Shown here: positions 43,004 to 61,380 of the stretch, piece after piece | How positions within the stretch are numbered: position 1 is the stretch's first letter | Layout: each line of letters opens with the position of its first letter | Assembly (NCBI GenBank): GCA_017538965.1 | Contig: JAFYHU010000080.1 | Location: forward strand, 1 to 64,000 | Direction of reading: 5' to 3' | Length of the DNA stretch: 64,000 nucleotides | Source of the DNA: Oscillospiraceae bacterium | Lineage (GTDB): Bacteria > Bacillota > Clostridia > Oscillospirales > Oscillospiraceae | The notes under the pieces: model-generated | The model's database searches: none | Seen by the model: the letters and a program-made list of their open reading frames with translations, nothing else | Told to the model about the DNA's origin: nothing | Made by a program: the position numbers and the translations under genes

Positions 43004-46000
43004 ATGGACCACACTCCCTTCCTGACAATTTTTCCGGGCTGTGCAGATCTGCATGATCTGTGCGGCGGACTGAATAAGGCCTATATCACGGGCGCTCAGG
43101 TAGCCGAAGCGGAACGGACGCTGTCGGTCTTCGCCTGGTTTCCCGCCATGCCTTCACCGGTGGAAACGGCAGCCCTGACCGAGCGGATCCGGGCAGATTA
43201 CGATCTGCGCAGCGTCAGTCTGACAGCCGATTATCCCAGGCCGGTCTCTGCAGCCCCGGAAGGATCCGCCGGTTCTCCTTCTGCCGCTTCGCAGCAGCCC
43301 GCCGGCACGGTTCTCTACGGGCGTGCAATCCGGCAGACACCGGTCCCCATGAGCAGCCTCACGATGGAATCCGGACGCGTGACGGTCGAGGGCGACGTCT
43401 TTGCCGTCTCCAGCCGCACCCTGCAGAAGCGGGGCGGAGCGGTGCTGGCCTTCGATATGACCGACCGGACGAACAGCGTACGCGTTTCCCGCTATCTGCG
43501 CTCGGAGGATGACCAGAGCATTTTGGACAAGATTCATGAAGGCGATCATCTGACTGTGCAGGGAGAAATCAGCTATTCCAAATTTGACGACGACATGGTG
43601 CTTGACCCGCGCAGCATCATCAAGGGCCGAAAGACCGTGCGCCCGGACAACGCGCCCGAGAAGCGCGTAGAGCTGCATGTGCACACCCGTTTTTCCGCGC
43701 TTGACGCGCTGACCGAGCCTGAGGCACTCCTCGAACGGGCTGCCTACTGGGGGATGCCTGCCGTTGCGGTGACCGACCACGGAGTGGCCCAGGCTTTCCC
43801 GGACATGTGGAAGTACGGGAAAAAATACGGCGTCAAGGTCATCTACGGGATGGAAGCATACTTTCAGCCGGAGAACGAGATCTTCCACGGCCGCTCCGAT
43901 CTGCCGCCGGAGACGGAATTCGCGGCCTTCGATATTGAAACGACCGGCCTTAACGAAAGCACGGACCGCATGACCGAAATCGGCGCGGTGATCGTTGCGG
44001 ACGGAAAGATTCTGGACAGCTTTCAGACCTTTGTCAACCCGGGAATGCCGATCCCACAGGAGATCACGGACCTGACCGGCATTACCGATGACGACGTTGC
44101 TTCGGCACCCGGCGAAAAAGAAGCCCTGGAAGCCTTTCTGCGCTTTGCGGGAGACCGGCCGCTGGCAGCGCACAACGCCAAGTTTGACGTAGGATTCATG
44201 AAGGCGGCGGCCGCGCGGAACGGGCTGAATTTCGATCCCGAGTATTACGACACGCTCGCGGCTTCCCATAATCTGCTTCCCGATTTGAAGCGGTTTAAAC
44301 TCGATGCGGTTTCGAACTACCTGAAGCTGCCGAAGTTCAACCATCACCGCGCAAGCGACGATGCTGCGGTTGTTGCGAGGATCATGGAGAAGTTCATCCC
44401 CATGATGAAGGACCGCGGCGTCCGGGCGCTGAGCGACATCAACCGCCTCTGTACGGAAAGCACGCATACGGACAAGACCTATCACATGATCCTGCTGGTA
44501 CAGAACCGGAAGGGTCTGAAGAATCTGTACGAACTGATTTCGCAGTCCTATCTGAAATACTTTTACCGTACGCCGAACATTCCGCAGAGCCTGCTGGAAA
44601 AGCACCGCGAGGGACTGCTGGTCGGCTCGGCCTGCGGCATGGGCGAACTGTACGGCGCCGTCATGCGCGGCGAGAGCGATGAAGAACTCCGGGAAATCGC
44701 ATCCCTGTATGACTACCTTGAGATTCAGCCGCTCTGCAACAACGGTTTTCTGGTCGACGACGGCCGGGTGAGCGGGGAAGAGGTACTGCAGGACTTCAAC
44801 CGTACGATCCTGCGCATCGGAAGGGAACTGAACAAACCCGTCATTGCAGCCTCGGATGTGCACTTCCTCGATCCGGAGGACGAGCAGTACCGCCGCATCC
44901 TGCAGGCAGCCAAAAAGTTTTCGGATCCCGACCGGGACTGCCCGATCTACTTCCGCAATACGGAAGAGATGTTGGCGGAATTCCAATACCTGGGCGAGGA
45001 GACCGCCCGGGAGGTGGTCATCACCAATACCCGCGCCATTGCGGACCGGATCGAGGAGATAGAGCTCCTGCCGAAAGGCCTGTTTCCGCCAAAGATCGAG
45101 AACTCGGCCGAGGAACTGAAAGAACTGGTCTACGGCAGAATGCGCCGGGTGTACGGAGAAGTCCCTCCGCCGCTGGTACAGGAACGCGTCGACACCGAAC
45201 TGAACACGATTCTCGATCACAACTATGATGTGATCTACATGAGCGCGCAGAAACTGGTGCAGAATTCGCTCGACCACGGCTATCTGGTCGGAAGCCGGGG
45301 CAGCGTCGGTTCGTCCATGGTTGCGTGGATGAGCGGGATTACCGAAGTCAACTCGCTGCCGCCGCACTATGTCTGCCCGAAGTGCCAGTACTCGGAGTTT
45401 CCAACGATGAAACTCTGCTGGAATCCCCATGCCGGTGCCGGTCGGGAATCGGAGCTGTCCGCGTCGCTGTTCGACGGAGAAGCGCCCGCTTACGGCTGCG
45501 GCGCCGACATGCCGGAAAAAGCCTGCCCGATCTGCGGCACGGCCCTGCGGCGCGACGGTTTCGATATTCCGTTTGAGACCTTCCTGGGCTTCCCGGGCAA
45601 TGAAAAGACGCCCGATATTGACCTGAATTTCTCCGGGGAGTATCAGGCAAAGGCCCATAAATACACCGAGACGCTCTTCGGCTCGGACCACGTTTTCCGC
45701 GCCGGCACCATCGGCACGCTGGCCGAAAAAACCGCATACGGCTATGTCAAGAAATATCTCGAGGAACGGGGAATCAGCGCCACGCGCGCCGAAGAAAACC
45801 GGCTGGCCGCTGGCCTGGTCGGCATCAAGCGGACAACGGGCCAGCATCCCGGCGGCCTGGTCGTCATTCCGCAGGATAAGGACGTGACGGATTTCTGCCC
45901 GGTGCAGCACCCGGCGGACGACCCGAACTCCGATATCATCACGACCCATTTTGAATACCACTGCATGGAGGACAATCTCCTCAAGCTCGACGAGCTCGGA

Positions 46001-47071
46001 CACGATGATCCCACCATGATCCGCATGATGGAGGACATGACCGGCGTCAATGCACGGGAAATCTCCCTGTCCGACCCCGAAACCATGTCCATCTATACCA
46101 GCCCCAAAGCGCTCGGCCTGCCGGACGACGATCCCATCATCGGAAAGACCGGCACCATCGGCGTCCCCGAGTTCGGAACAGGCTTTACCCGGCAGATGCT
46201 GGTCGATACCCAGCCGAAGCTTTTCGATACCTTGGTGCGGCTTTCCGGCTTCTCCCACGGCACCGACGTATGGGCGGGGAACATTCACGATCTGATCGTG
46301 GACGGAACGGCAACGGTCGATGAGACCATCGGCTGCCGCGACGACATCATGATTTATCTGATCAGCCTGGGCATGGAGCCGTCGCTGGCATTCCAGACCA
46401 TGGAACAGGTTCGAAAAGGAAAGGTCAAGAGAAGCGGAAAGTTCCCGGGCGACGCGGAACAGCAGATGAAGGATCTGGGTGTTCCGGGCTGGTGGATCGA
46501 ATCGGCCAGAAAGATCGCCTATCTGTTTCCGAAAGCCCACGCGGTTGCCTACGTCATGATGGCCTTCCGGATCGCCTGGTTCAAGGTCCACGAGCCGCTG
46601 GCCTTCTATTCTGCCTACTTCTACCGCCGCAGCCAGAAGGGCGGTTTCGATATCGACATGATGAGCGGCGGAACCGAGAAGGTACGGCGGAAGATCAACG
46701 AGATGAAGCGCGCGAACACGCTGACGGCGAACGAGGAAGACCTGCTGGTAACCCTGGAGGCGGTCTACGAGTTCAATCTGCGCGGCTATCGTTTCGCAGC
46801 GGTTGATTTCCGGCGCTCCGACGCGACCCGCTTCCTCATCCTCGACGATTGCACGATTCTGCCTCCCTTTGTCTCGGTACCCGGGCTCGGAGAGACGGCA
46901 GCCCAGGATCTGGCGCACTGCCGGGAGAGCGGACGCGAGTTTGTCTCGATCGACGAAATCGGCTTTGCCTGCCCGAAGGTCTCCCAGACGCATCTGGAGA
47001 CGCTCAAGCGGATGGGCGCCTTTGGCGAACTGCCGGATTCTTCCCAGGTTTCTCTCTTTGACGATTGGTAA
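43004..47071 (+). CDS. polC: DNA polymerase III PolC (Gram-positive replicative polymerase)
   Basis: 1355 residues, slightly shorter than the usual ~1430 owing to a reduced N-terminal region. Order of domains: an OB fold (about 110-215), the PHP domain opened by VELHVHTRFSALDA (~222), an inserted 3'-5' exonuclease with FAAFDIETTGLNE (~306) and the HHRASDDAA motif, the rest of PHP, then the polymerase palm. The zinc finger near 790-850 (CPKCQYSEF, CPICGTAL) and the palm acidic motif DIDLNFSG are present. It ends with YGFNL-like RGYRF and the beta-clamp motif QVSLFDDW. Confidence 0.96.
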   Translation: MDHTPFLTIFPGCADLHDLCGGLNKAYITGAQVAEAERTLSVFAWFPAMPSPVETAALTERIRADYDLRSVSLTADYPRPVSAAPEGSAGSPSAASQQPAGTVLYGRAIRQTPVPMSSLTMESGRVTVEGDVFAVSSRTLQKRGGAVLAFDMTDRTNSVRVSRYLRSEDDQSILDKIHEGDHLTVQGEISYSKFDDDMVLDPRSIIKGRKTVRPDNAPEKRVELHVHTRFSALDALTEPEALLERAAYWGMPAVAVTDHGVAQAFPDMWKYGKKYGVKVIYGMEAYFQPENEIFHGRSDLPPETEFAAFDIETTGLNESTDRMTEIGAVIVADGKILDSFQTFVNPGMPIPQEITDLTGITDDDVASAPGEKEALEAFLRFAGDRPLAAHNAKFDVGFMKAAAARNGLNFDPEYYDTLAASHNLLPDLKRFKLDAVSNYLKLPKFNHHRASDDAAVVARIMEKFIPMMKDRGVRALSDINRLCTESTHTDKTYHMILLVQNRKGLKNLYELISQSYLKYFYRTPNIPQSLLEKHREGLLVGSACGMGELYGAVMRGESDEELREIASLYDYLEIQPLCNNGFLVDDGRVSGEEVLQDFNRTILRIGRELNKPVIAASDVHFLDPEDEQYRRILQAAKKFSDPDRDCPIYFRNTEEMLAEFQYLGEETAREVVITNTRAIADRIEEIELLPKGLFPPKIENSAEELKELVYGRMRRVYGEVPPPLVQERVDTELNTILDHNYDVIYMSAQKLVQNSLDHGYLVGSRGSVGSSMVAWMSGITEVNSLPPHYVCPKCQYSEFPTMKLCWNPHAGAGRESELSASLFDGEAPAYGCGADMPEKACPICGTALRRDGFDIPFETFLGFPGNEKTPDIDLNFSGEYQAKAHKYTETLFGSDHVFRAGTIGTLAEKTAYGYVKKYLEERGISATRAEENRLAAGLVGIKRTTGQHPGGLVVIPQDKDVTDFCPVQHPADDPNSDIITTHFEYHCMEDNLLKLDELGHDDPTMIRMMEDMTGVNAREISLSDPETMSIYTSPKALGLPDDDPIIGKTGTIGVPEFGTGFTRQMLVDTQPKLFDTLVRLSGFSHGTDVWAGNIHDLIVDGTATVDETIGCRDDIMIYLISLGMEPSLAFQTMEQVRKGKVKRSGKFPGDAEQQMKDLGVPGWWIESARKIAYLFPKAHAVAYVMMAFRIAWFKVHEPLAFYSAYFYRRSQKGGFDIDMMSGGTEKVRRKINEMKRANTLTANEEDLLVTLEAVYEFNLRGYRFAAVDFRRSDATRFLILDDCTILPPFVSVPGLGETAAQDLAHCRESGREFVSIDEIGFACPKVSQTHLETLKRMGAFGELPDSSQVSLFDDW

Positions 47072-47110: not shown

Positions 47111-47154
47111 CAGGTGCGGAAGCTGACGGACAGTTTCCGCACCCTGTTTTTTTA
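47111..47154 (+). terminator. Terminator of the pyrH-polC block
   Basis: GGTGCGGAA/TTCCGCACC hairpin followed by CTG and a seven-T run, 40 bases after polC. Confidence 0.88.
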
Positions 47155-47421: not shown

Positions 47422-48186
47422 ATGGATAACAAAGCCAAGATCATTACGGTTGCCGGCAAGGGCGGCGTGGGCAAGACTTCGATCTGTGCGTCTGTCGTAC
47501 GGCTTCTTGTTGAGAAGTTTCCGGATAAGAAGATTCTTGCCATCGATGCGGATCCCGCGGTCGGCCTTTCCGTTGCTCTTGGCGTGGATGTGAAGCTGAC
47601 GCTGGACGATATTCGCATGAGTATCGTCGACAGTGTGGAAAACGGCGAAACCCGGGAAGCGCTCGAGCTCCTCAGCGAAGCCCGCTTCCGCATTTTTGAC
47701 GCTCTGGTTGAGATGCCCGGCTTTGCGTTTCTGGCCATCGGCCGGCCGGAGAGTTCGGGATGCTACTGCAAGGTGAATTCCTACCTGAAGGAAGTCATCG
47801 GCATGCTGGCCGGAAGCTTTGACTATGTCGTCATCGACGGCGAAGCCGGCATTGAACAGATACAGCGCCGCGTCATGGAAAAGGTCACGCACCTTCTGCT
47901 GATCACCGATCAGAGCAAGAAGGGCGGGCAGGTGATTGCCACCATCAAGAGCGTCGCAGATGAACTGATCGCCTATGACCGCATCGGCGTCATCATCAAT
48001 CGCGTGACGAATCCGGAACTGGTGGAACTGATTCAGCTTCCCGGCGTCGAAATCCTCGCGGCGATTCCTGCCGACTCTGCCTTTGCCGCGAATGACATCC
48101 GCGGCAGGAGCGTTTGGGAGCTGCCTGCGGATTCCCCCGTCCTGGCGGGGGTGCGGGAAGCGCTCCGGGAAATGGAAATCTTATAA
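47422..48186 (+). CDS. CooC-like P-loop ATPase (metal-cluster maturation type)
   Basis: 254 residues of the MinD/CooC ATPase family. The deviant Walker A GKGGVGKTSI (residue 9), the DADPAVGLSVALG switch region and GRPESSGCYCKVN with the CxC pair are diagnostic for CooC, which inserts nickel in carbon monoxide dehydrogenase through that CxC at the dimer interface. No CODH is in the window. It is the first gene of an operon with dehydratase-family subunits, their activator and an acetyl-CoA-synthase-like protein, so it probably matures a metal cluster there. Confidence 0.85.
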   Translation: MDNKAKIITVAGKGGVGKTSICASVVRLLVEKFPDKKILAIDADPAVGLSVALGVDVKLTLDDIRMSIVDSVENGETREALELLSEARFRIFDALVEMPGFAFLAIGRPESSGCYCKVNSYLKEVIGMLAGSFDYVVIDGEAGIEQIQRRVMEKVTHLLLITDQSKKGGQVIATIKSVADELIAYDRIGVIINRVTNPELVELIQLPGVEILAAIPADSAFAANDIRGRSVWELPADSPVLAGVREALREMEIL

Positions 48187-48202
48187 AGGAGAGGTGTAAC
48201 AT

Positions 48203-49399
48203 TTGAAAGATCTGAAGCATCTGATCTACTTTGAGAGCCTGCTTGAGAACGCGGACAACGAACTGATCGAGAAGAAAAAGAAAGACGGCGGGATCTGCCT
48301 GGGCTATACCTGCTTTCACATTCCGGAAGTTCTTCTGAACGTTGACAACTGCTTCTCAACGCGGCTCCGCGCACCGAACACGGGATCAATTGACATCGCG
48401 ACCTATTACATGTCCAACTACACCTGCGAATTTGCCCGCGCCCTGCTCGAACGCGCGATCGAGGGCGGGTACCGCTTCCTGGACGCGCTGATCGGCGTCG
48501 ATGCCTGCTCTATGATGAACCGTTCGATGGAGCATTTCGAGATCCTGCAGGTCAACGAAAACCCGAAATTCTTCGTGACGCACTGCGACATGCCCTTCAA
48601 GATCACCGACTACACGGTGGAGGGCTACCGCCGGCAGATGCGCGTGCGCGTCCTGGACCGTCTGACGGAGGTCTTCGGCGCCGACACCTCCGATGCCGCC
48701 CTCCGCAAGGCGGTAGAGGAGCACAACGAGGTATGCCGGATCATACAGGAGCTGAGCGCACTGCGGAAAAAGGCGAACCCGGTGATCACGGGCTACGAGT
48801 TCCACATTCTGAATCTGGTGACCTACGTCTGCCCGAAGAGCGAAATCCTCCCGTACCTGCAGGAGACGCTGGCGGAGGTGAAGAAGAGGAGGCCCGACCG
48901 GAAGAATCCCTACCGCGCGCGGGTGGCGATTGTGGGCTCCGAGATTGACGATCCGAGCCTGACGAAGCTGATCGAGGGCTGCGGGGCCCTGGTGGTTTCC
49001 GACCGGTACTGCTTCGGTTCCACCCCCGGGCGCGAGGTGATCGAGCTGAACGACGACGAAGACGTCCTGACGCAGATCTGCCGCCACTATATGGAGGTTT
49101 CGGAGTGCGCCCGCTACATCTCGGACGAGAAGGTGCTGCAGCGCCGGGAGACCGCCGACCGGCTGGCGAAGGAATTCGACGCCGAGGGCATCATCTACGA
49201 GCAGATGAAGTACTGCGATTACTGGGGCTTTGAACGCGCCCTCGTCAGCCACATCATGCACGACGAGTACGGCTGGCCGGTCCTCTCCATCGACAGGCTC
49301 TACAACAACGGAAACTCCGGGCAGCTCCGCACCCGTGTGCAGGCCTTCGTGGAATCGCTGGAAATCAAACGCATTCATAAAGAGGAGGGCAAAGCATAA
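48203..49399 (+). CDS. 2-hydroxyacyl-CoA dehydratase/double-cubane family subunit, short
   Basis: 398 residues. The N-terminal GICLGYTCFHIPEVLLN block carries the first cluster Cys, as in HgdA, BcrC or double-cubane proteins (DCCP). Further Cys lie at VDNCFSTRL, NYTCEFA and VDACSMMN, with a last set around residue 290. Members use electrons energised by an ATP-hydrolysing activator to drive hard reductions. Start TTG at 48203 follows GGAGAGGTG. The ATG of the next gene overlaps its stop. The substrate is unknown: no CoA-transferase or acyl-CoA dehydrogenase is adjacent. Confidence 0.82.
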   Translation: MKDLKHLIYFESLLENADNELIEKKKKDGGICLGYTCFHIPEVLLNVDNCFSTRLRAPNTGSIDIATYYMSNYTCEFARALLERAIEGGYRFLDALIGVDACSMMNRSMEHFEILQVNENPKFFVTHCDMPFKITDYTVEGYRRQMRVRVLDRLTEVFGADTSDAALRKAVEEHNEVCRIIQELSALRKKANPVITGYEFHILNLVTYVCPKSEILPYLQETLAEVKKRRPDRKNPYRARVAIVGSEIDDPSLTKLIEGCGALVVSDRYCFGSTPGREVIELNDDEDVLTQICRHYMEVSECARYISDEKVLQRRETADRLAKEFDAEGIIYEQMKYCDYWGFERALVSHIMHDEYGWPVLSIDRLYNNGNSGQLRTRVQAFVESLEIKRIHKEEGKA

Positions 49400-51186
49400 T
49401 GGCAAAAGTGCGATACCCCAATCCGAAATTCTTCCGGGCCAAAGACAACATCGACTGGAAAAAGCAGGGCAAAAACCTTGCGGAGGTCGCGGGCATCTTC
49501 GGCGAGCTGCTGAAGGAGACCGACTGGGAGCAGTACGGCAGAAACTGCCTCTCGGTCCTCCGCTCCGACGGCGAGCGCATCCGGGGCGAATTTGAGGACT
49601 TCATGGCCCTGGACGGAAAGGAGAAGTGGGACCGCGTCGTCAACGGCGAGCGCTCCCTCGGCCGTCTCTACCGCAAGGGCGCCATGTGCACGGTGCGCCG
49701 GGAGTGGCGCGGTGTCGTCGATACCGCTTACGACTTCTGGGAATGGGCCCGCATGTGGGGCATGCTGCTCATGACCTTCTCGAAGGACCTGGTCCCGGCC
49801 ATGAACAGCGCTCTGTGGTACCGCTGGATGATCTCCTATTTCTGCTGCCACGGCTTCATGGACAAGAACATCATGGGCCTGCGCGGCTCGAACCTGCGCA
49901 TGAGCCACGCGGCGACCTTCTCCATCTTCCGCTATGTCGCCGAGAACCTCGTGCTCCTCTCCAAGGCCGACCGCAAGAACGGCAACAGCGAAGAGCTCAA
50001 CAAAATGCTCTTCACCTTCGACGAGATGACCATGGGCCAGATCGCCGCCGGCTTCCCCGACCTGCTCGCGATCCCGCATCAGCTCCTGCCCATGTTCCTG
50101 GTCTCGGAGATCGACCAGCTGGTCTGCATCCCGTACATCGACGCGGTCGAGAGCTACGGCCTGCCCTCCGACACCTGCCCGGTCCCGTCCTCCGAATGCG
50201 GCGCCCTGGTCATCGACGCGCTGCCCGACATGGGCTCGCTCTTCATCTCGAGCTCCATGCCCTGCGACGGCTCGACCATGGCATCTTCCTACTTCGCCCG
50301 CCGTTTCCCGAACATCCCGGTCTTCCACCTCTGCTTCCCGGTCCGCTACGAGGATGAGGAGACCGTCCAGATGGGCACCGACGACATCAAGGCCTGCATC
50401 AAAGCCATCGAGGACGCCACCGGCGCGAAGTGGAACTGGGACCACTATTTCGAGTGCATGAAGCGCTTCAATGCCGAGACCGACCTCGAGCTCCAGAAGT
50501 GGGAGATCAACAAGTCGGCCCGCCCGCAGTTCATCGGCCCGAGCTACGAGCTCTTCCGCAAGTGGAACTACGAGATGGACGGCGGCATCGACCCCAGAGT
50601 CCTGCCCGAGATGGAGAAGATGAACAAGATGCTTCTCCGCGCCTACGAGAAGGGCGAGACCGCCTGGCCCGCTCGGAAGATGAAGTACCGCGCCCTGGTC
50701 TGGTCCTGCCCGGCCCACTACTATGCCAACTTCTCCAACTGGCTGGCCAACTGCTGGGGCGTTGACGTCCTGGTCGAGATGGAGTCGCTGAACTACACCA
50801 AGCATCTCGAGACCGAGGACAAGGAAGAGGCCCTGCGCGACCTGGCCCGCCTCTACGAGCGCATGGTCATGCGCCGCCACACCAACGGCGGCTACCAGAA
50901 CGTCGTGGACGAGTGCTGGCGCCAGTGCGAGGCCTGGGACGCGAAGCTCATTATCATGTACCAGAACGTCGCCTGCAAGAACATGGCGACCGTCCAGGGC
51001 CTGCTGGACGAGCAGGGCAGAGCGCGCGGCTACGACCTCATCTGGGTCGAGCACGACCTGATGGACCCCCGCACCGTCTCCCGCCGCACCATGCGCGACA
51101 AGGTCAACGAATACATGCGCACCGTCATGCGCGCCGAGCCCGTTGACCCCTCCCTGGTCGAATTCGAAGACGAGGTATGTATGTAG
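49399..51186 (+). CDS. 2-hydroxyacyl-CoA dehydratase/double-cubane family subunit, long
   Basis: 595 residues, some 150 longer than typical HgdB- or DCCP-type subunits; the extra part is a ~190-residue N-terminal helical region. Family motifs include DTCPVPSSECGAL, SSSMPCDGSTMAS (cluster Cys), WSCPAHYYAN and, near the end, MYQNVACKNM. It probably pairs with the 398-residue protein. Codon use from here to 53.2 kb is strikingly rich in C-ending codons, which suggests high expression and makes long meaningless frames on the other strand. Confidence 0.82.
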   Translation: MAKVRYPNPKFFRAKDNIDWKKQGKNLAEVAGIFGELLKETDWEQYGRNCLSVLRSDGERIRGEFEDFMALDGKEKWDRVVNGERSLGRLYRKGAMCTVRREWRGVVDTAYDFWEWARMWGMLLMTFSKDLVPAMNSALWYRWMISYFCCHGFMDKNIMGLRGSNLRMSHAATFSIFRYVAENLVLLSKADRKNGNSEELNKMLFTFDEMTMGQIAAGFPDLLAIPHQLLPMFLVSEIDQLVCIPYIDAVESYGLPSDTCPVPSSECGALVIDALPDMGSLFISSSMPCDGSTMASSYFARRFPNIPVFHLCFPVRYEDEETVQMGTDDIKACIKAIEDATGAKWNWDHYFECMKRFNAETDLELQKWEINKSARPQFIGPSYELFRKWNYEMDGGIDPRVLPEMEKMNKMLLRAYEKGETAWPARKMKYRALVWSCPAHYYANFSNWLANCWGVDVLVEMESLNYTKHLETEDKEEALRDLARLYERMVMRRHTNGGYQNVVDECWRQCEAWDAKLIIMYQNVACKNMATVQGLLDEQGRARGYDLIWVEHDLMDPRTVSRRTMRDKVNEYMRTVMRAEPVDPSLVEFEDEVCM

Positions 51187-51260
51187 CGTCCTCACAAGCT
51201 TCATATCCCTCGCTTCCCTCAGGCGTGAGGAAAGCTCGCTCATTCCGCTGCTCGTCCTTT

Positions 51261-51361
51261 TCCAATCAAACCCGCTCCGCTGGGCTTTGATTGGAGGCCT
51301 TCCCCTCTGGGGAAGGGGGACCGCTTGCGGTGGATGAGGTCCCCGCCCGCAGGCGGATCAA
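51261..51361. repeat. Hairpin and REP-like element A1 before the activator gene
   Basis: A TCCAATCAAA/TTTGATTGGA inverted repeat (51261-51295) runs into an element with CTTCCCC/GGGGAAG, then GGGGGACCGCTTGCGGTGGA and TGAGG, then CCGCCCGCAGGCGG. The same element is at 56691-56757. It occupies most of the 206 bases between the long subunit and the activator gene. Confidence 0.7.
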
Positions 51362-51392
51362 AAATAACAACAAACAAAAGGAGAAAATCACC

Positions 51393-52187
51393 ATGAAATA
51401 TTTCGGCGGCTGCGACGTAGGTTCCACCTACACGAAAGCGGTTATCCTCGATGAAGACGGCAAGATGATTGCCGATACCACCATCATGAGCAAGATCAAT
51501 TCCGAGCAATCTGCCATCGCCGCGATGGCCGACGTCTGCGCGAAGGCCGGCCTGAAGGACTCCAAGGAGCTCTCCTACCTGATCGGCACGGGCTACGGTC
51601 GCAACAAGGTCCCCTTCGCGGATGAGAACATCTCGGAGATCTCCTGCCACGCCATGGGCGTGCATGTCACCGACCCCAGCGTCAAGGCCATCATCGACAT
51701 CGGCGGCCAGGATGTCAAGGGAATCAGCGTGGACACGGACGGCACCGTGAAGAACTTCGCCATGAACGACAAGTGCTCCGCGGGCACGGGCCGCTTCTTC
51801 GAGGCGATGGCCCGCTCCTTTGAGATGAGCCTGCCCGAATTCTCCAAGCTCTCCCTGACCGCGAAGAACGTGATCCCCATCACGGCCCAGTGCACGGTGT
51901 TTGCCGAGTCCGAGGTCATCACCCTGGTCGGCGAAGGCAAGCCGACGGACGAGATTGCCGCCGGCATCGAGATGGCGGTTGCCAAGCGCTGCTTCGTCAT
52001 GGCAAAGAAGGCCGGTGCCACCGACAGCATCACCCTGACGGGCGGCTGCGCGAAGGACGACGGCCTGAAGGAGGCCATCGAGCACGTGCTGAAGCTGAAG
52101 GTCGTGAACCTGAAGACCGATCCCCAGCTGATGGGTGCCCTGGGTGCCGCCGAGTACGCCCGCCAGAAAGGCCTCGCGAAGAAGTAA
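51393..52187 (+). CDS. Dehydratase activator ATPase (HgdC/BcrAD type)
   Basis: 264 residues of the ASKHA fold. The phosphate loop reads GGCDVGSTYTKAVI, with a second DIGGQDVKG and a third TGGCAKDDG. The [4Fe-4S] ligands at the dimer interface are in NDKCSAGTGRFF and ITAQCTVFAESE. It binds ATP and injects one electron into the dehydratase-type partner. AAAGGAG precedes the ATG at 51393. The frame is open 34 codons upstream, but only this start has a ribosome site. Confidence 0.92.
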   Translation: MKYFGGCDVGSTYTKAVILDEDGKMIADTTIMSKINSEQSAIAAMADVCAKAGLKDSKELSYLIGTGYGRNKVPFADENISEISCHAMGVHVTDPSVKAIIDIGGQDVKGISVDTDGTVKNFAMNDKCSAGTGRFFEAMARSFEMSLPEFSKLSLTAKNVIPITAQCTVFAESEVITLVGEGKPTDEIAAGIEMAVAKRCFVMAKKAGATDSITLTGGCAKDDGLKEAIEHVLKLKVVNLKTDPQLMGALGAAEYARQKGLAKK

Positions 52188-52190
52188 AAC

Positions 52191-52254
52191 CTGACAGCGG
52201 GGACGGTTCTTGCTGTCTTCCGGAACGAAAGACAGAAAAACCGTCCCCCTGTCA
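52191..52254. repeat. REP-like palindrome B1
   Basis: An imperfect long inverted repeat around GACAGCGGGGACGGTTCTT with internal CTGTCTT/AAAGACAG pairing. A near-identical copy with perfect arms is at 56943-57010. Such GGGGACGGTT elements occur in many Firmicutes genomes, often with REP-associated Y1 transposases; none is in the window. Confidence 0.8.
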
Positions 52255-52277
52255 AGCCGTTAGAAAGGAGAAATAAC

Positions 52278-52433
52278 TTGAAATTCTTCAAAAAGCTTTC
52301 CAAAATCCTTTTCACGGTCGTCGCGGTGCTGTTCGTCGTCTATTTCTGGAACCTCGATCAGAAGGTCCTCGGCTGGGCCTACCAGCAGGTCAACCGCATG
52401 TTTGACCGCAAGAAGGTCGATCAGGTGTTCTGA
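52278..52433 (+). CDS. Single-membrane-span small protein of the dehydratase operon, 51 residues
   Basis: Starts with TTG at 52278, 6 bases behind AAGGAG. A basic start (MKFFKKLSK) leads into one membrane helix (ILFTVVAVLFVVYFW) and a basic, amphipathic tail (VNRMFDRKKVDQVF). It ends 5 bases before the CdhC-like gene and shares its C-rich codon bias, which supports a real gene. It could tether the enzyme complex to the membrane; that is inference. Confidence 0.65.
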   Translation: MKFFKKLSKILFTVVAVLFVVYFWNLDQKVLGWAYQQVNRMFDRKKVDQVF

Positions 52434-52438
52434 GCCCG

Positions 52439-53173
52439 ATGGAACTCTATAACTCCCTGATCCGAGATACCCGCGCCTTCCTGGAAAACGGCTCCCCGAA
52501 GACCTGGGACTACAGCGAGAGGGACTGCTGGAAGGACATCGGCTCCAGCGAGCTCGTCCTCCAGAAGGACGCCGCCTACGAGCTCGGCGCCTCCGGAAAG
52601 GGCTCGGCAAACTACGTGCTCTTCAGCTCTTCCCCCGACTTCGTGAACCGGGATCAGGTGCTGCTCTACGGCCGGGACCTCCGCGAGATCAGGGGTGACA
52701 CGGACTTCGCGAGAATCGTCCTTCTGCGCGTCGGCGTCCTGGATGACGACAACGAAAAGGTCTATCGCATCCTCAAGGACATCGAGTTCGCCAAGTACCA
52801 TGTCTATCCCGAGGGCTACATGGTCCGCATGTCCCCGGAGAACTACCGCGAGCAGGTCCGTGTCTCCCGTCAGGCCCTCCGTGCCGGCATCAGCTTCCGC
52901 AGCATCGGCTGCAGCTACATCCGGGCCTATAAGAAGGACGTCAACGTCCTGAACGCGACCGTCATCTTCGTCACCGCCCCCGGCTTCGACTACGCGGGTA
53001 TGAAGGCCACGGCCAAAAAGGCCGCCGACATCACCAACACCCTGACCACCATCTTCGAAGGCCTCCCGACCGACTGTTCGGTCTGCTCCCTCAAGAACAT
53101 CTGCGACGAGGTCGAGGGCATGAAGGAGCTGCACTTCGGCGTCGGCGCCTCCGGCACCCCCAAAACCCGCTGA
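52439..53173 (+). CDS. CdhC/AcsB-like protein (N-terminal half of acetyl-CoA synthase beta)
   Basis: 244 residues resembling the first half of the archaeal CdhC subunit: a VLLYGRDLREI strand like the VGPDL motif, a YHVYPEGYMVRMSPENY segment like the helix with MRVSK, and NATVIFVTAPGFDYAGMKA before a final CSVCSLKNIC that corresponds to the start of the A-cluster Cys set. The remaining A-cluster ligands (the GCGC region) are absent, so it is not a full ACS. It may bind one Fe-S cluster and act as an electron or scaffold partner of the dehydratase-type enzymes. Its 3' end is copied twice downstream. Confidence 0.65.
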   Translation: MELYNSLIRDTRAFLENGSPKTWDYSERDCWKDIGSSELVLQKDAAYELGASGKGSANYVLFSSSPDFVNRDQVLLYGRDLREIRGDTDFARIVLLRVGVLDDDNEKVYRILKDIEFAKYHVYPEGYMVRMSPENYREQVRVSRQALRAGISFRSIGCSYIRAYKKDVNVLNATVIFVTAPGFDYAGMKATAKKAADITNTLTTIFEGLPTDCSVCSLKNICDEVEGMKELHFGVGASGTPKTR

Positions 53174-53187
53174 CCCCCATAAACCCA

Positions 53188-53221
53188 AACCTCCTCCGCC
53201 CATCCCCGGGGGAGGTTTTTT
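53188..53221 (+). terminator. Terminator of the CooC-dehydratase operon
   Basis: AACCTCC/GGAGGTT hairpin with a long loop and T-run. A second hairpin ACCGTCCG/CGGACGGT lies near 53279-53302. The whole block recurs at about 57285-57400 and partly at 61455-61490. Confidence 0.8.
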
Positions 53222-53302
53222 CGCCGCCTCTCTCCACGTCGGCTCATCGTCCGACACGTGTCCGCGAAATGAAAACACCGTCCGCAAATTACGGACGGTA
53301 TC

Positions 53303-53860: not shown

Positions 53861-54283
53861 TCAAACACGGTATTTCTCCGTGTATTTGCGGATTCGTGCT
53901 TCGCGCTTTTTGAGCTCGCCCTGCATGCTGTTCTGGACTTCGTCCGCGATGGCCAGCATGAGGTTTGCCCAAACGGGGAGGCCCCCGGCGGAGGCGAAAA
54001 GATTCATTTCACCGAACAGGGGAGTGCAGACATCCTGCCCGAAGAGCGCGTTGATGATGTCGCGCATCTTCAAGTCCAGATTCTTTGCAAGGTTGAAGAC
54101 ATCCTTTTCGTCGGTGATCTCTTCCTGACTCAATTTCACTTCTTCCTGGATCAGATCCAGAACCTGAAAGCTGTCAGACAGCTTTTCAAGAAAGGCAACG
54201 TCAGTCGGGTTGAATTTTACGGTGACTTTCCCGTCCAGGTCGTATTCTTCAATCCCGTTGTCAAAAGTCAAATTTTTCATCAT
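53861..54283 (-). CDS. Phage tail assembly chaperone-like protein
   Basis: 140 residues from an ATG behind GGGAG. It begins MMKNLTFDNGIEEYDLDG and is mostly helical after residue 30, with an acidic middle and a basic end (KKREARIRKYTEKYRV). Position directly after the tail tube gene and this composition match the gpG-type chaperone that assists tape-measure folding; the tape measure itself is missing. Remnant of the same tail module. Confidence 0.65.
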   Translation of the reverse strand: MMKNLTFDNGIEEYDLDGKVTVKFNPTDVAFLEKLSDSFQVLDLIQEEVKLSQEEITDEKDVFNLAKNLDLKMRDIINALFGQDVCTPLFGEMNLFASAGGLPVWANLMLAIADEVQNSMQGELKKREARIRKYTEKYRV

Positions 54284-54331
54284 TATTCTCCCGTCTCTCA
54301 ACTCTCAACTCTCTACTCTCAACTCTGACCA

Positions 54332-54859
54332 TTACGTGTCAGCAGTAAAGGTCACGACGCCTGTACTTGCGTCTCGTGTCGCTGTTCCTGTGGTCCTCGT
54401 CCCAGCAAACGTAATGGTCAAAGGCATTCCGACATTGCTGCCGCCCTCACCGCCGAGACCGGTGATCTCGATCATGCAGGAGGCATATCTTTCCGCAAAA
54501 GGACTGGACGCGGTGCCGGCGTAGAAGTGCACGACCAGCATGTCCTGCGCGGCCAGGGCCTGGGCGTCCTGATCCTTGACGGCCAGGTTCCAGAGTTTGA
54601 CCTGTGCGACATCGCCGCCGTCCAGATGGCAGGGCTCGAAGGTCTGGGTGATCTTCGGCTTTTTCAGGGTGCCGTATGTCGCGCCGAGAATGTCGCGGAT
54701 GGTTTCGCTCTCCCAGTCCAGCTCCGTGGAGCTGTCCTCCACGCGCTTGCCCAGCGGGGACCAGACAGGGGACTGCGCGGTCCCGGTGTTCAGGTAGCAG
54801 ATGAGCATCTCGCGGGCAATGGTTTTTCCCGCATCGGTGTTAAATGTAATATCCGGCAA
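54332..54859 (-). CDS. Phage major tail (tube) protein
   Basis: 175 residues starting with TTG behind AAGGAG. The beta-rich sequence, with the early MLICYLNTG, a SPLGKRVEDSSTELDWE block, and an Ig-like end (TFAGTRTTGTATRDASTG), is typical of siphophage tail tube subunits. The gene appears intact although its neighbours are decayed. It is divergent from the peptide array, 87 bases from the first peptide start. Confidence 0.75.
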   Translation of the reverse strand: MPDITFNTDAGKTIAREMLICYLNTGTAQSPVWSPLGKRVEDSSTELDWESETIRDILGATYGTLKKPKITQTFEPCHLDGGDVAQVKLWNLAVKDQDAQALAAQDMLVVHFYAGTASSPFAERYASCMIEITGLGGEGGSNVGMPLTITFAGTRTTGTATRDASTGVVTFTADT

Positions 54860-54884: not shown

Positions 54885-54913
54885 TTGTTTTGTGACGAAA
54901 GCTGTGATAGAAT
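54885..54913 (+). promoter_or_regulatory. Conserved peptide promoter, copy A
   Basis: TTGTTT (54885-54890), 17-base spacer TGTGACGAAAGCTGTGA, TAGAAT (54908-54913). The spacer holds a TGTGA-7-TGTGA direct repeat. The first peptide ATG is 33 bases downstream. Confidence 0.85.
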
Positions 54914-54945
54914 GTGCTCAACATAAAAAATCGGGGGTTCTTACC

Positions 54946-55149
54946 ATGGAGAATAAAAAAGATAAAGTTACTCTGAATGACGAACTGTTGGATAAAGTCT
55001 CCGGCGGTGATATCATAGACGGAGAACACTATGGACTGCTTCGCGAAGGTATATGTTCTTGTGGTAGAAAACTAGAAAGTGATGGTTGTTGCAGCAATCC
55101 AGCGTGTCCCAATAGCCCTTTTTATAATGTGCCCCCAACGATTAAGTAG
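54946..55149 (+). CDS. Double-glycine-leader Cys-rich precursor peptide 1
   Basis: 67 residues. The leader MENKKDKVTLNDELLDKVSGG ends in the Gly-Gly cleavage site used by C39-peptidase exporters. The 46-residue core holds five Cys: ICSCGRKL, DGCCSNPACPNSP. The CxCG then CxNPxC pattern is shared with peptides 3 and 7. It is the first gene behind promoter copy A. No modification enzyme or transporter is near, so whether the core is a bacteriocin, a signal or a metal-binding peptide is open. Confidence 0.75.
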   Translation: MENKKDKVTLNDELLDKVSGGDIIDGEHYGLLREGICSCGRKLESDGCCSNPACPNSPFYNVPPTIK

Positions 55150-55216
55150 TATTTTGAACCGGAAGCCGTTTCCTCGTTTCATCCCGTCTTTGAACTTTAA
55201 TATGGAGGTTATAATT

Positions 55217-55417
55217 ATGGAAAACATCACTGCAAAAGAAGAGAAGAAGGAAGTTAACCAGAAAGCCGGTATGCTCCTCAGTGACGATAAGCTGGAGCAA
55301 GTAGCTGGAGGTCGTCATTTTGGTCAGTGCTCGTATTGGCCAGTATGCAGTCTTTATGGCACAAGTCAGTGCCTTGGAGATGAATGCCTTCACGTCCTAG
55401 AGCCTGAGTATCAGTAA
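55217..55417 (+). CDS. Double-glycine-leader Cys-rich precursor peptide 2
   Basis: 66 residues, ATG behind GGAGG. The leader is of the second type, with KAGMLLSDDKLEQVAGG, closer to Nif11-like leader ends. The core, RHFGQCSYWPVCSLYGTSQC and then LGDEC, has four Cys spaced 6, 8 and 5. It lies 67 bases behind peptide 1; the spacer resembles the spacers before peptides 3 to 5. Confidence 0.75.
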   Translation: MENITAKEEKKEVNQKAGMLLSDDKLEQVAGGRHFGQCSYWPVCSLYGTSQCLGDECLHVLEPEYQ

Positions 55418-55478
55418 GCCTGTTGCCGTTTCTTGCCTTTACACTTTTCACTTTGACCTTTAATCGGAGGTTATGATC

Positions 55479-55652
55479 ATGGAAAACAGCAAAGCTGATA
55501 AAGTCAGACTGAACGAAGAACTGATGGGCAAAGTGTCTGGCGGAGATGATACGGATTATTGGTGCTTGTGCACCTGTGGAATGATAATGCGTAACGGCGT
55601 CTGCCCTAACCCAATGTGTGAAAACAGCCCTAACTATAATCCTCGGTACTGA
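55479..55652 (+). CDS. Double-glycine-leader Cys-rich precursor peptide 3
   Basis: 57 residues, ATG behind CGGAGG. Leader MENSKADKVRLNEELMGKVS then GG; core DDTDYWCLCTCGMIMRNG continuing VCPNPMCENSP. The core shares CxCG-(6-8)-GxCxNPxCxxSP with peptides 1 and 7. Easily missed because of its size, but the leader leaves little doubt. Confidence 0.75.
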   Translation: MENSKADKVRLNEELMGKVSGGDDTDYWCLCTCGMIMRNGVCPNPMCENSPNYNPRY

Positions 55653-55710
55653 ACCCGTTGACGCTTCCCCGTTTCATCCCGTCTTTAATCTTTAATCGGA
55701 GGTTCTCATC

Positions 55711-55938
55711 ATGAAGCTCACAGGTAAACTCAAAACCCAGGTTGATAACGCCCCCACCAAGGAAGAGAAGCGCGAGGCCATCAAGCAGGCCGGTATGCTC
55801 CTCAGTGACGATAAGCTGGAGCAGGTGTCCGGGGGTGATTTTAGTCTATCTCCATGTATATATAATCTATATTGTCCCAATGCTCATACCACGAATTGCC
55901 ACCCAGAACTGTGCCCCTATGCCCAAGGACGAACGTAA
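55711..55938 (+). CDS. Double-glycine-leader Cys-rich precursor peptide 4
   Basis: 75 residues, ATG behind CGGAGG. The longer leader MKLTGKLKTQVDNAPTKEEK...AIKQAGMLLSDDKLEQVSGG is nearly identical to that of peptide 5, so the two are recent duplicates. The core DFSLSPCIYNLYCPNAHTTN then CHPELCPYAQGR has four Cys, with a C-(5)-CPxA and C-(4)-CPxAQG layout. Confidence 0.75.
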   Translation: MKLTGKLKTQVDNAPTKEEKREAIKQAGMLLSDDKLEQVSGGDFSLSPCIYNLYCPNAHTTNCHPELCPYAQGRT

Positions 55939-55999
55939 GTCTATTGCCGTTTCCCGCCTTTACACTTTTCACTTTGACCTTTAACCGGAGGTTCTCATC

Positions 56000-56275
56000 A
56001 TGAAACTTACAGGTAAACTCAAAAATCAGGTAGAATCCGCACCCACCAAGGAAGAGAAGAGAGAAGCCATCAAGCAGGCCGGCATGCTCCTCAGCGATGA
56101 CGAGCTGGATCAGGTATCGGGAGGCTATGAAGGCTATCCATGGAATATAGAGGAGTATTCCGGAGATTGGTATAGTACTGGTTTCAAATGTCCGTATAAC
56201 CCAGGATGCCCTTATTTTGGCAATCCATGTCAATGCCATCAAGAAACCTGCCCCTGGGCCCAAGGGAAACTTTAG
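56000..56275 (+). CDS. Double-glycine-leader Cys-rich precursor peptide 5
   Basis: 91 residues, the longest. Leader as in peptide 4 (KQAGMLLSDDELDQVSGG). The core is aromatic-rich first (YEGYPWNIEEYSGDWYSTG) and then Cys-rich: KCPYNPGCPYFGNPCQCHQE followed by TCPWAQGKL. The end, CP-x-AQG, matches peptide 4. It is the last peptide of the array, 23 bases before the stop of the convergent phage gene. Confidence 0.75.
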   Translation: MKLTGKLKNQVESAPTKEEKREAIKQAGMLLSDDELDQVSGGYEGYPWNIEEYSGDWYSTGFKCPYNPGCPYFGNPCQCHQETCPWAQGKL

Positions 56276-56297
56276 ACTGTTGTCATTTCCCGCCTTT

Positions 56298-56663
56298 TTA
56301 CAGTTCCTCCACCCTCAGCGTCAGCGCAAAATCTTCTGTTCCCGAGGCGCTTTTGCTCTTCGGTTTCGATATCCCCGCCAGGACGACCCTTCCGCCGTCC
56401 GGCGGGTTTTCTTTTGCCCAGACGCGGAGAGCATCCATTTCATCCAGCAGGTTCAGCCGGTCCGCATTCCCGGAAACGCTCTTCCTCCGTGTGATGGTGA
56501 CTTCCACAGATTCCCAGCTGTTCCCCAGAATATCCGTGTTCGTCTTTGTTCTCGGCGTAGTCACGGACCATCCGGCATTGGCAGGCAGATAGTCCAGGTT
56601 GACTTTCTCACCCTCCAGCAGGGGAGCTGCGCATATCCATTCATAGATTTCCCTTGTAGTCAT
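56298..56663 (-). CDS. Phage minor capsid/tail completion protein
   Basis: 121 residues similar to the small siphophage protein encoded just before the tail tube gene. Visible: MTTREIYEWICAAPLLEGE, a central TRRKSVSGNADRLNLLDEMD helix and VVLAGISKP. In a normal phage the tube gene would be next, but here the five-peptide array (1.4 kb) separates them on the opposite strand. It looks intact. Confidence 0.65.
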   Translation of the reverse strand: MTTREIYEWICAAPLLEGEKVNLDYLPANAGWSVTTPRTKTNTDILGNSWESVEVTITRRKSVSGNADRLNLLDEMDALRVWAKENPPDGGRVVLAGISKPKSKSASGTEDFALTLRVEEL

Positions 56664-56690
56664 ATACGCTTCCTTCCTGCGGCCGCAGCC

Positions 56691-56757
56691 GCCCTTCCCA
56701 TTATGGGGAAGGGGGACCGCTTGCGGTGGATGAGGTGTTCCCGCCCGCAGGCGATCA
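56691..56757. repeat. REP-like element A2
   Basis: Copy of the element at 51296-51361: CTTCCC/GGGAAG hairpin, GGGGGACCGCTTGCGGTGGA, TGAGG, CCGCCCGCAGGCG. It touches the stop codon of the phage gene fragment next to it. Confidence 0.7.
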
Positions 56758-56893
56758 ATCGTAATTCATCCCGCTTTTCTCATTGATTCTGCTGCTCGCT
56801 TCCCAGTGCTGCATGCCCGGTTGGCCGTAGTCTCTTGTGCTCACTGTCGTTACAATGAAAACCCCGTCATAGAGTTCTCTCGCCTCGGCCAGG
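56755..56893 (-). pseudogene. 3' fragment of a phage head-tail gene
   Basis: On the minus strand a frame entered behind a TAG reads ...LAEARELYDGVFIVTTVSTR, DYGQPGMQHWEASSRI and NEKSGMNYD before its stop at 56755-56757. This is the end of a phage structural protein that normally lies before the minor capsid gene; the 5' part is lost at about 56893. Confidence 0.55.
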
Positions 56894-56942
56894 CTGCAAG
56901 CCTACTGAACCCGTAGGGAGCGATCCCCAGATCGCTCCGTTT

Positions 56943-57010
56943 CCTGACAGCGGGGACGGTTCTTGCTGTCTTCCGGAACGAAAGACAGAAGAACCGTCCC
57001 CGCTGTCAGG
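56943..57010. repeat. REP-like palindrome B2
   Basis: CCTGACAGCGGGGACGGTTC continuing TT, with an exactly complementary right arm ending CCGCTGTCAGG, and an inner CTGTCTT/AAAGACAG set. Copy of 52191-52254. It joins directly to a copied fragment of the CdhC-like gene. Confidence 0.85.
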
Positions 57011-57011
57011 C

Positions 57012-57273
57012 CAGCTACATCCGGGCCTATAAGAAGGACGTCAACGTCCTGAACGCGACCGTCATCTTCGTCACCGCCCCCGGCTTCGATTACGCGGGCA
57101 TGAAGGCCACGGCCAAAAAGGCCGCCGACATCACCAACACCCTGACCACCATCTTCGAAGGCCTCCCGACCGACTGCTCGGTCTGCTCTCTCAAGAACAT
57201 CTGCGACGAGGTCGAGGGCATGAAGGAGCTGCACTTCGGCGTCGGCGCCTCCGGCACCCCCAAAACCCGCTGA
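57012..57273 (+). pseudogene. Copied 3' end of the CdhC-like gene (fragment 2)
   Basis: Nearly identical to 52911-53173, in the same frame, with the final CSVCSLKNIC motif and the same stop region. No start or promoter precedes it: it begins at the edge of REP element B2. The terminator block of the parent gene is copied with it. Confidence 0.9.
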
Positions 57274-57284
57274 CTCCCAAAAAC

Positions 57285-57400
57285 CCAAACCTCCTCCGTC
57301 CATCCCCGGGGGAGTTTTTTCTCGCCTCTCTCCACGTCGGCTCATCGTCCGACACGTGTCCGCGAAATGAAAACACCGTCCGCTATTTACGGACGGCTTT
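57285..57400 (+). terminator. Copied terminator block behind fragment 2
   Basis: Same two hairpins as at 53188-53302 (CCTCC...GGGGGAG and ACCGTCCG/CGGACGG with T-runs). It insulates promoter copy B. Confidence 0.75.
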
Positions 57401-57417
57401 TTCTTCGCATTGCGTGC

Positions 57418-57446
57418 TTGTTTTGTGACAGAAGCTGTGCTACACT
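57418..57446 (+). promoter_or_regulatory. Conserved peptide promoter, copy B
   Basis: TTGTTT (57418-57423), 17-base spacer TGTGACAGAAGCTGTGC, TACACT (57441-57446). Peptide 6 starts 42 bases further. Confidence 0.8.
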
Positions 57447-57487
57447 GTGACCATCATAGGAAAAATTTTTGATCGGAGGCTGCCAAT

Positions 57488-57682
57488 ATGGAAGACAGAA
57501 AAGAAAAAAATAAGCTGAATGACGAACTGCTCGGTAAGGTATCTGGAGGTGATGAAGGATCACTTTCTCCTTCTTCTTGTATTATGTTTAGAGATTGTCC
57601 TTATAGTTACCCTTGTATGAGTGGACTACCATGCCCAAAATCGACCGATGTCGAGTTTGACACCGATACTAGAGATTTATAA
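57488..57682 (+). CDS. Double-glycine-leader Cys-rich precursor peptide 6
   Basis: 64 residues, ATG behind CGGAGG. Leader MEDRKEKNKLNDELLGKVSG then G; core DEGSLSPSSCIMFRDCPYSY continuing PCMSGLPCPKS, four Cys spaced 6, 6 and 6, then an acidic tail. It is a single-gene unit with its own promoter B and a hairpin terminator near 57711-57744. Confidence 0.75.
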   Translation: MEDRKEKNKLNDELLGKVSGGDEGSLSPSSCIMFRDCPYSYPCMSGLPCPKSTDVEFDTDTRDL

Positions 57683-57710
57683 GCTCGCCTTGTCTCTGAA
57701 AATCAACTCG

Positions 57711-57744
57711 GCCAGAACGGTTTTCCGTCCCGGCCGGGTTTTCT
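57711..57744 (+). terminator. Terminator of peptide 6
   Basis: CGGCCAGAACGG/CCGTCCCGGCCG imperfect hairpin followed by GGTTTTC. Confidence 0.65.
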
Positions 57745-57786
57745 ATATTCGCTTACTTCCGCGTCAACCCAAGGTTTCTTTTCTGT

Positions 57787-60267: not shown

Positions 60268-60507
60268 CAGACACAGTCCTCTCTGACGAATTGTCATGGA
60301 ATGCAAAAATATCAATAATTGTGTATGATTATTCTATCATCTCCGAATGTTGCCGTCAACGAAAAAAGTATCGGAATTTCATATTATTTTTGTATTTTCA
60401 AAGAGAATTCCGGGGAGAAAGTGAAGAATGAGAATCAACAGCGAGGTCTTCTCTGCGCTTGAAGGGCGTATTTATTGACGGCTGTCAGGCAAGTATGCTG
60501 CCAGGCT
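60268..60507. other. Gap between the repeat-protein gene and the broken holin
   Basis: About 240 bases. It should carry the promoter of the repeat-protein gene on the minus strand, but I cannot pick a convincing one. No gene or repeat is seen. Confidence 0.4.
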
Positions 60508-60776
60508 TTAATTGTCAACCCAAGGTTCCTCGTAGCTCATTGCCCGTTTGCTGTCATACAGGCCTTCGGTGGTGGGGTCAGCTACAATGCCGAGAATGGC
60601 CAGCACCGCGAAGAGCGCGTTGACCACGGCGAGCAGCTTGTCCTCAGATTGCCGATATCGAGCTCAATGCCGAACACGCTGCACGCGGTCTGAATCAAAA
60701 TCAGCACTGCCGGGATCAGCGCGATCCAGAACACCTTATTTTTGATGGGTAGCGAGGTCTCGTAGCTTTTCTGCTT
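60508..60776 (-). pseudogene. Frameshifted phage holin (phi LC3 type)
   Basis: On the minus strand the frame with KNKVFWIALIPAVLILIQTA and VFGIELDIGNL breaks near 60644, where one base appears lost; the next frame continues with DKLLAVVNALFAVLAILGIV and DPTTEGLYDSKRAMSYEEP before a TAA at 60508. Both halves match small siphophage holins with two membrane segments. The 5' end is also lost at the junction with promoter copy C. Confidence 0.8.
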
Positions 60777-60786
60777 CTTTGTGTGA

Positions 60787-60815
60787 TTGTTTTGTGACGA
60801 AAGCTGTGATAGAAT
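60787..60815 (+). promoter_or_regulatory. Conserved peptide promoter, copy C
   Basis: TTGTTT (60787-60792), 17-base spacer identical to copy A, TAGAAT (60810-60815). Homology with copy A extends from GTGTGATTG to GCTCAA. Confidence 0.85.
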
Positions 60816-60882
60816 ATGCTCAAATAGGAAATTGTTATCAGGGGATGCAGTCATGAAATTCTTTAATACGGAGGTTGTGATC

Positions 60883-61113: not shown

Positions 61114-61129
61114 AAAAAGGAGATTTGTC

Positions 61130-61360: not shown

Positions 61361-61380
61361 TTTTAAAATTTATTCGGAGG

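Follow-up and report, generated by a model that had tools for sequence, protein, structure and literature searches.

A conserved operon of Clostridia joining a probable double-cubane reductase with a CooC-like ATPase and a cut-down relative of acetyl-CoA synthase

Introduction

Which enzyme is made by an operon that places reductase subunits beside relatives of the carbon monoxide dehydrogenase (CODH) and acetyl-CoA synthase (ACS) machinery? The locus that raises this question lies in the window, the whole stretch of 64,000 nt analysed here (contig JAFYHU010000080.1, positions 1-64,000 of the forward strand, assembly GCA_017538965.1, Oscillospiraceae bacterium). Six open reading frames (ORFs), all on the plus strand inside 47422-53173, encode a CooC-like ATPase, two HGD-D proteins of 398 and 595 amino acids (here X and Y), an activator, a 51-amino-acid protein and a CdhC relative of 244 amino acids (here CdhN). 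The original prediction, made from the sequence, had described this layout as a reductase with a maturation ATPase and an ACS-derived partner; the ORF list and Pfam matches to the expected families bear out the layout, and the description fits the families found for the parts.

The operon is real, conserved and outside the pathways considered, joining a reductase of the benzoyl-CoA reductase (BCR), 2-hydroxyacyl-CoA dehydratase (HAD) and DCCP kind to a piece of the CODH/ACS kind. That it encodes a reductase is very probable. The whole model, an ATP-driven low-potential reductase of the class I BCR/HAD superfamily with a metal-loading module, is given about an even chance of being right. In the literature searched, which excluded subscription papers, the six-gene operon was not recognised as described.

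The reductase subunits and their activator

X (48203..49399, plus strand, TTG start) and Y (49399..51186, plus strand) match Pfam HGD-D with 299 and 111 bits. The cysteines C37, C75, C102, C270, C302 and C338 of X form the double-cubane pattern, and the six [8Fe-9S] cysteines of the BzdN-type subunit, taken from the BzdN ligand list in the available part of PMC11971306, are kept in 59-60 of 60 X sequences, the rest being one gap. Y has the fold of BzdO and of 2-hydroxyisocaproyl-CoA dehydratase chain A, with about 160 extra N-terminal residues relative to the BzdO-type fold, and its invariant cysteines are C260, C289, C452 and C526; the sequences behind the cysteine counts of X and Y are related to one another. 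These relatives of Y came from fold comparison, as phmmer against solved structures gave nothing useful. The idea that C452 of Y is the counterpart of C270 of X was rejected, because hhalign puts C452 elsewhere. Of the two double-cubane subunits originally predicted, both are HGD-D family proteins, but the complete set of double-cubane cysteines occurs in X alone, and Y has fewer.

The activator, a BadF/HgdC family ATPase of 264 amino acids (51393..52187, plus strand, ATG at 51393), matches Pfam BcrAD_BadFG with 185 bits and TIGR00241 with 210 bits, well over the cut-off of 125.4. As expected for an HgdC-type protein, it carries the two cluster cysteines, Cys128 and Cys167, both aligning to MbdQ (130 and 169 in some alignments, whose reference starts two codons earlier). 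An X with [8Fe-9S] double-cubane ligands, a Y with the fold of a substrate-site subunit and an HgdC-type activator are thus supported by sequence and fold. The small membrane protein (51 amino acids, 52278..52433, plus strand, TTG start) is present as foreseen, with one hydrophobic stretch, an NLDQK motif and no Pfam match, and similar small genes come after Y at other loci.

An ordinary 2-hydroxyacyl-CoA dehydratase or benzoyl-CoA reductase accompanied by passenger genes would share this superfamily and this activator family, and is nevertheless a very unlikely reading. X falls far under the curated models for BzdN (86.8 bits, cut-off 453.8), BcrC (66.8, cut-off 421), DCCP (NF040772, 140 bits, cut-off 350) and the dehydratase subunit beta (NF052456, 77.7 bits, cut-off 700). 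Gene order and co-occurrence, described below, are too constant for passengers, and the bacterium's own genome holds a separate HGD-D pair (contig C12) adjoining another activator, 38% identical to that of the operon.

The CooC-like ATPase and the cut-down acetyl-CoA synthase

CooC, a MinD/CooC-family P-loop ATPase of 254 amino acids (47422..48186, plus strand), matches Pfam CbiA with 54.5 bits, and its best solved relative is CooC itself (3kje, E 1.3e-17). The deviant Walker A motif GKGGVGKT and the predicted CxC pair, Cys114-Tyr-Cys116, are invariant in 11 of 11 sequences. According to the available parts of PMC6006190 and PMC13056359, CooC, CooT and CooJ are nickel helpers of CODH.

CdhN (52439..53173, plus strand) scores 23.6 bits with the CdhC family PF03598, just below the cut-off of 24.0, and 24.3 bits, above it, in the genome search; the other relationship comparisons also place it with the ACS middle domain. 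Of ten other carriers, seven have a CdhN that reaches or exceeds the PF03598 cut-off; in G586 and G480, whose true ACS genes score more than 200 bits, it stays below, and in G272 it has no match. While phmmer against solved structures found nothing useful, fold comparison did give relatives. The kinship with CdhC/ACS that had been proposed for the last gene is therefore upheld by PF03598 and the middle-domain match; CdhN would then be an electron partner or a scaffold, the choice between the two, like nickel, being an inference.

ACS uses four cysteines for the A-cluster cubane and a C-G-C motif, which holds the distal nickel. CdhN ends in C213-x2-C216-x5-C222-x9-H232 and offers only these three cysteines and His232 (19 of 19 sequences), against C505, C508, C517, C527, C594 and C596 of ACS. 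Shorter relatives of about 217 amino acids lacking the cysteine tail (L205, 6097-6750; L206, 5059-5709) sit in two genomes that also carry a cdhN-cooC pair.

Conservation and co-occurrence of the operon

A search for the six-gene neighbourhood across Clostridia, as the original prediction had proposed, found that the operon recurs in the class, with cooC conserved alongside the other genes in related genomes. In a scan of genome contigs with CdhN, the best 80 of 201 relatives (loci L009-L088) were titled Oscillospiraceae, Ruminococcaceae, Clostridia and similar, many of them from ruminants. An activator precedes cdhN in 68 of the 80, and in 45 of the 68 the contig ends inside the activator gene; the 51-amino-acid gene was found in 73 and all five long genes in 14. 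Of the 12 loci where no activator was seen, five start 114-214 bases (274 in one) before the 51-amino-acid gene, so near that the contig is taken to end before the activator, and seven (L079-L081, L085-L088) have cdhN away from an activator; in L085 and L088, cooC stands immediately behind cdhN and the activator elsewhere. The order cooC-X-Y-activator-51 amino acids-cdhN is also found outside the 80, in L176-L180 and L183-L186, and L181 holds Y (cut by the contig end), the activator, the small gene and cdhN.

Since 45 of the 80 contigs end within the activator gene and its protein is more conserved than those of its neighbours, sequence common to species or copies probably breaks the assemblies there. 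Recent exchange as the source of this conservation was rejected: across 16 sequences, fourfold-site identity (0.50) resembles that of neighbouring genes (0.47-0.55), and protein identity is 0.92, which points to selection on the protein.

Distances between CdhN proteins correlate with those of CooC, X, Y and the activator at 0.93, 0.96, 0.93 and 0.90 (23 sequences including the window), in loci picked for holding all five genes and with shared ancestry raising the values. In an order-level sample of 295 genomes, CdhN (alignment A1) and Y (alignment A4) were each found in five, the same five; CooC-type matches occurred in 17, with E <=1.1e-98 in the five carriers and 1.8e-26 to 1.0e-52 in the other twelve. 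In an overlapping class-level sample of 391 genomes, Y was found in seven and CdhN in the same seven at E <=2.1e-86. For Y, the own genome is the sole class genome in the model, whereas the CdhN alignment used here (A5) includes the proteins of the six other carriers, so that those hits arise by construction and the lack of others does not. Four further weak CdhN matches (7.1e-9 to 8.8e-7) lie in frames of 537, 715, 716 and 716 amino acids, about the size of full ACS. Stop flags on some matches (G272, G517, G480) were followed by gene calls at these loci that gave open frames.

The sole match in the phage library, MT837370.1 (L089), is a GenBank record from human faeces, labelled Bacteriophage sp., that contains cooC-X-Y-activator-cdhN. 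With these operon genes and a LysR-type regulator (identified by reading), the record looks like a bacterial scaffold, and an assignment of the operon to phage was rejected.

That cdhN follows the activator in 68 of 80 loci suits another explanation, in which CdhN is an electron donor or gating [4Fe-4S] (Cys3His) subunit that reduces the activator or serves to dock it on X, with CooC maturing only the cluster of CdhN and the reductase containing iron-sulphur clusters only. The three-Cys-one-His site, the sole invariant metal-type motif of CdhN, agrees with it. Yet activators also stand beside X/Y sets lacking cdhN (L190, with pieces in L120 and L124), and both the cdhN-cooC units without an activator and the CooT, HypA and HypB genes near some relatives are left unexplained. 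Known systems of the HAD/BCR superfamily, moreover, use ordinary ferredoxin or flavodoxin. An electron-donating CdhN is accordingly regarded as possible but unlikely, and a reductase served by a metal-loading module is preferred.

Many X/Y pairs and one CdhN

Seven genomes with cdhN outside the operon (G001-G007) contain 10-18 HGD-D matches each, corresponding by position to 4, 6, 9, 5, 6, 7 and 3 X/Y pairs, plus unpaired or broken pieces; G004 has one more HGD-D pair of another kind, and one of its X copies (contig C20, L094) was reported with one in-frame TAG. The own genome has eight HGD-D matches, that is, four pairs. Meanwhile, 17 of 20 genomes searched contain a single CdhN; of the other three, G680 has two copies, while G004 and G007 each have, besides CdhN, a shorter relative that lacks the Cys tail. 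With many X/Y pairs and a mostly single CdhN, the latter looks common to several enzymes, judging from gene counts.

Thirteen satellite X-Y sets were read (L176, L182, L188-L193, two in L209, L210, L211 and L212). Behind Y, 11 of them have a small membrane-type gene (recognised by eye only in L176, L192 and L212); L182 and L210 do not. Neither cooC nor cdhN is part of any of the 13, the L176 set lying divergently beside a core operon. The set of L190 has an activator, so this component is not strictly single. In L213 (the same as L052), a different X-Y pair precedes a small gene, an activator, the 51-amino-acid gene and cdhN, with no cooC in that stretch.

CODH, nickel helpers and flavoenzyme neighbours

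The CODH catalytic subunit (TIGR01702) was not found in 28 of 31 cdhN-bearing genomes, the own genome included, though drafts may be incomplete; matches occurred in G480 and G586, both with ACS, and in G602. cooC was seen in 24 of the 31, 21 of these without a CODH match (it was not looked for in G001-G003, G005 and G006). Genomes in the PF03598 and CODH searches had been chosen for carrying the set or cdhN. Because CODH is mostly not found in carriers, the CooC/CdhN pair may equip the reductase instead. In the own genome, 94% complete, PF03598 matches cdhN only; with no CODH match either, a part in the Wood-Ljungdahl pathway was rejected, which strengthens the earlier view that this pathway does not explain the operon.

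Regarding nickel helpers, L183 has CooT (PF10133, 55.6 bits against a cut-off of 27) after cdhN and a small protein. The operon of L176 has a CooT-like gene and a His-rich small gene 7 kb upstream, and genes of both kinds also adjoin a second cooC in L194. HypA scores 102.5 bits in L179 and is recognised by similarity in G006, where L099 and L210 are one place, and L188 has a CobW/HypB-type GTPase.

FAD/FeS proteins resembling the layout described for IsrA adjoin X/Y in the own contig C1, L179, L188 and L210, and divergently in L106. According to the available part of PMC10134865, IsrA is a putative isoprene reductase that occurs alongside HypA and HypB. Downstream of cdhN, L176 and L183 have OYE-type flavoenzymes, and both kinds of neighbour fit reductive chemistry on C=C bonds.

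The IsrA-like flavoproteins, together with HypA in L179 and L210 and the HypB-type gene in L188, are also what would be expected if X/Y and the activator formed an activase re-reducing a nickel protein, either CdhN or an IsrA-like flavoprotein, that does the chemistry. Methyl-coenzyme M reductase is a known case of ATP-driven nickel reduction through large iron-sulphur clusters (PMC12176620, available part). On the other side, three to nine X/Y pairs per full CdhN (G001-G007) do not match the ratio expected of activases with a single client, the fold of Y is that of substrate-binding subunits, most X/Y sets read have no IsrA-like neighbour, and the available part of PMC12176620 names McrC and Mmp7, not the X/Y family; a role of that family in methyl-coenzyme M reductase activation was considered and dropped for this last reason. 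An activase is improbable, and the reductase is retained as the preferred reading.

Proposed mechanism and its weight

By analogy with BzdNOPQ, the activator would pass electrons at the cost of ATP to the double cubane of X, then to the cubane of Y and on to the substrate, with the 51-amino-acid protein as a presumed third subunit tethering X/Y to the membrane. CdhN would be a cut-down ACS in which the middle domain survives together with a Cys3His vestige of the cubane site of the A-cluster, and a putative client of the ATPase CooC. It may pass on to X/Y a metal, as such or in a cluster and most likely nickel, or keep Y ready for it, and one CooC/CdhN module may serve one to nine X/Y enzymes of differing substrates. 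Loading of metal by CooC and CdhN is about as credible as its opposite; nickel in the finished enzyme is rather doubtful. A bolder proposal, that the X/Y enzymes of uncultured gut Clostridia form a new class of BCR-family reductases containing nickel or another heterometal, with up to nine of them per genome and a Y cubane bearing an extra metal, perhaps via Cys452, loaded by CooC and the half-ACS, is offered tentatively and is unlikely.

Several observations weigh against metal loading. CdhN lacks the C-G-C of ACS and therefore holds no complete A-cluster (four cubane cysteines plus C-G-C); its C-terminal Cys tail is modelled with low confidence (block means 31-57), alignments and superpositions reach that tail only to its first cysteines, and profile searches against solved structures recover ACS only at E 0.04. 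In L079-L081, L086 and L087, where cooC was not searched, cdhN stands apart from X/Y and the activator. Nickel-helper genes are near some loci only, with none in the window, and no nickel riboswitch was found in the window or in eight other loci, the latter giving an L10 leader only. Metagenome-assembled genomes, finally, may miss genes.

The operon matters because it unites, in one conserved unit, double-cubane/BCR reductases with the nickel machinery of CODH/ACS, both among the most demanding metal systems known from anaerobes, in bacteria most of which have no detected CODH. Should the module load metal into X/Y, a whole family of so far unstudied reductases would open up in rumen and gut. 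CdhN, as a natural reduced form of ACS, is informative on the evolution of the A-cluster.

Surroundings of the operon in the window

Upstream of the operon are a polC-like gene (43004..47071, named from reading of the ORF) and a terminator-like hairpin (47113..47143, plus strand), one of 8 such sites in the window from a scan in which 6.3 are expected by chance. Downstream of cdhN, an inverted repeat with a T run (53190..53221, plus strand) was read by eye and not listed by the scan. The six genes had been predicted to form one transcript; since they overlap or abut in L184 and L185, a single transcript is plausible on gene spacing, and no more than that, given gaps in the window of about 200 nt between Y and the activator and about 90 nt between the activator and the 51-amino-acid gene. 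The latter gap contains a palindromic repeat (52190-52258), with a second copy, 96% alike, at 56943-57012 preceding a partial second copy of cdhN that covers its 3' third, residues 157-242 (57007..57264, plus strand).

The cdhN 3' end with the terminator-like repeat (52912-53298) recurs at 57012-57396, 4.1 kb away, with 97% identity, and a third, shorter copy lies at 61377-61492 (92%). These direct repeats flank segments of the phage-like and small-peptide genes found downstream of the operon, which looks like insertion or duplication at the cdhN 3' end. On the minus strand, two genes at 53864-54859 match phrog_11299 and phrog_3099 (PHROG families of unassigned function; two of eight proteins compared), and may be what is left of a prophage lying between the repeats. 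On the plus strand, 54900-61360 contains at least seven small genes with a common double-glycine leader (e.g. NDELLDKVSGG, SDDKLEQVSGG), most with Cys-containing cores; the seven proteins tested matched no curated family over its cut-off, and they are possibly ribosomally made peptides. Also on the minus strand, 57787-60315 encodes an 842-aa protein with a signal-like start and Asn/Thr-rich repeats, where DNA repeat families occur, and which likewise matched no curated family over its cut-off.

Comparison with known systems

Compared with the class I benzoyl-CoA reductases BzdNOPQ and MbdONPQ, the operon has one activator gene instead of two, a Y with its N-terminal extension, an X below the BCR cut-offs, and CooC, CdhN and the 51-amino-acid protein in addition. 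Moreover, Y has Ser (47 of 51 sequences) where spacing from the numbering in the available part of PMC11971306 would put His131 of BzdO. As for the double-cubane cluster proteins DCCP and DCCP-R, the same source describes DCCP as a homodimer, in contrast to the two different subunits of the operon, although the cysteine pattern of X aligns with DCCP and NF040772 gives its 140 bits; and, again from that source, (R)-2-hydroxyacyl-CoA dehydratases have abolished the double cubane, whose cysteines X retains. Unlike AcsB/CdhC, CdhN has no ACS N-terminal domain, its last domain is shrunk to a tail, and the tail has a spacing of x5 rather than x8, His for the fourth Cys and no C-G-C. Lastly, the operon resembles nickel insertion for CODH by CooC and CooCTJ in the C-Y-C motif and in the CooT and small His-rich proteins that adjoin some related copies, and differs from it in that 28 of the 31 cdhN-bearing genomes gave no CODH match.
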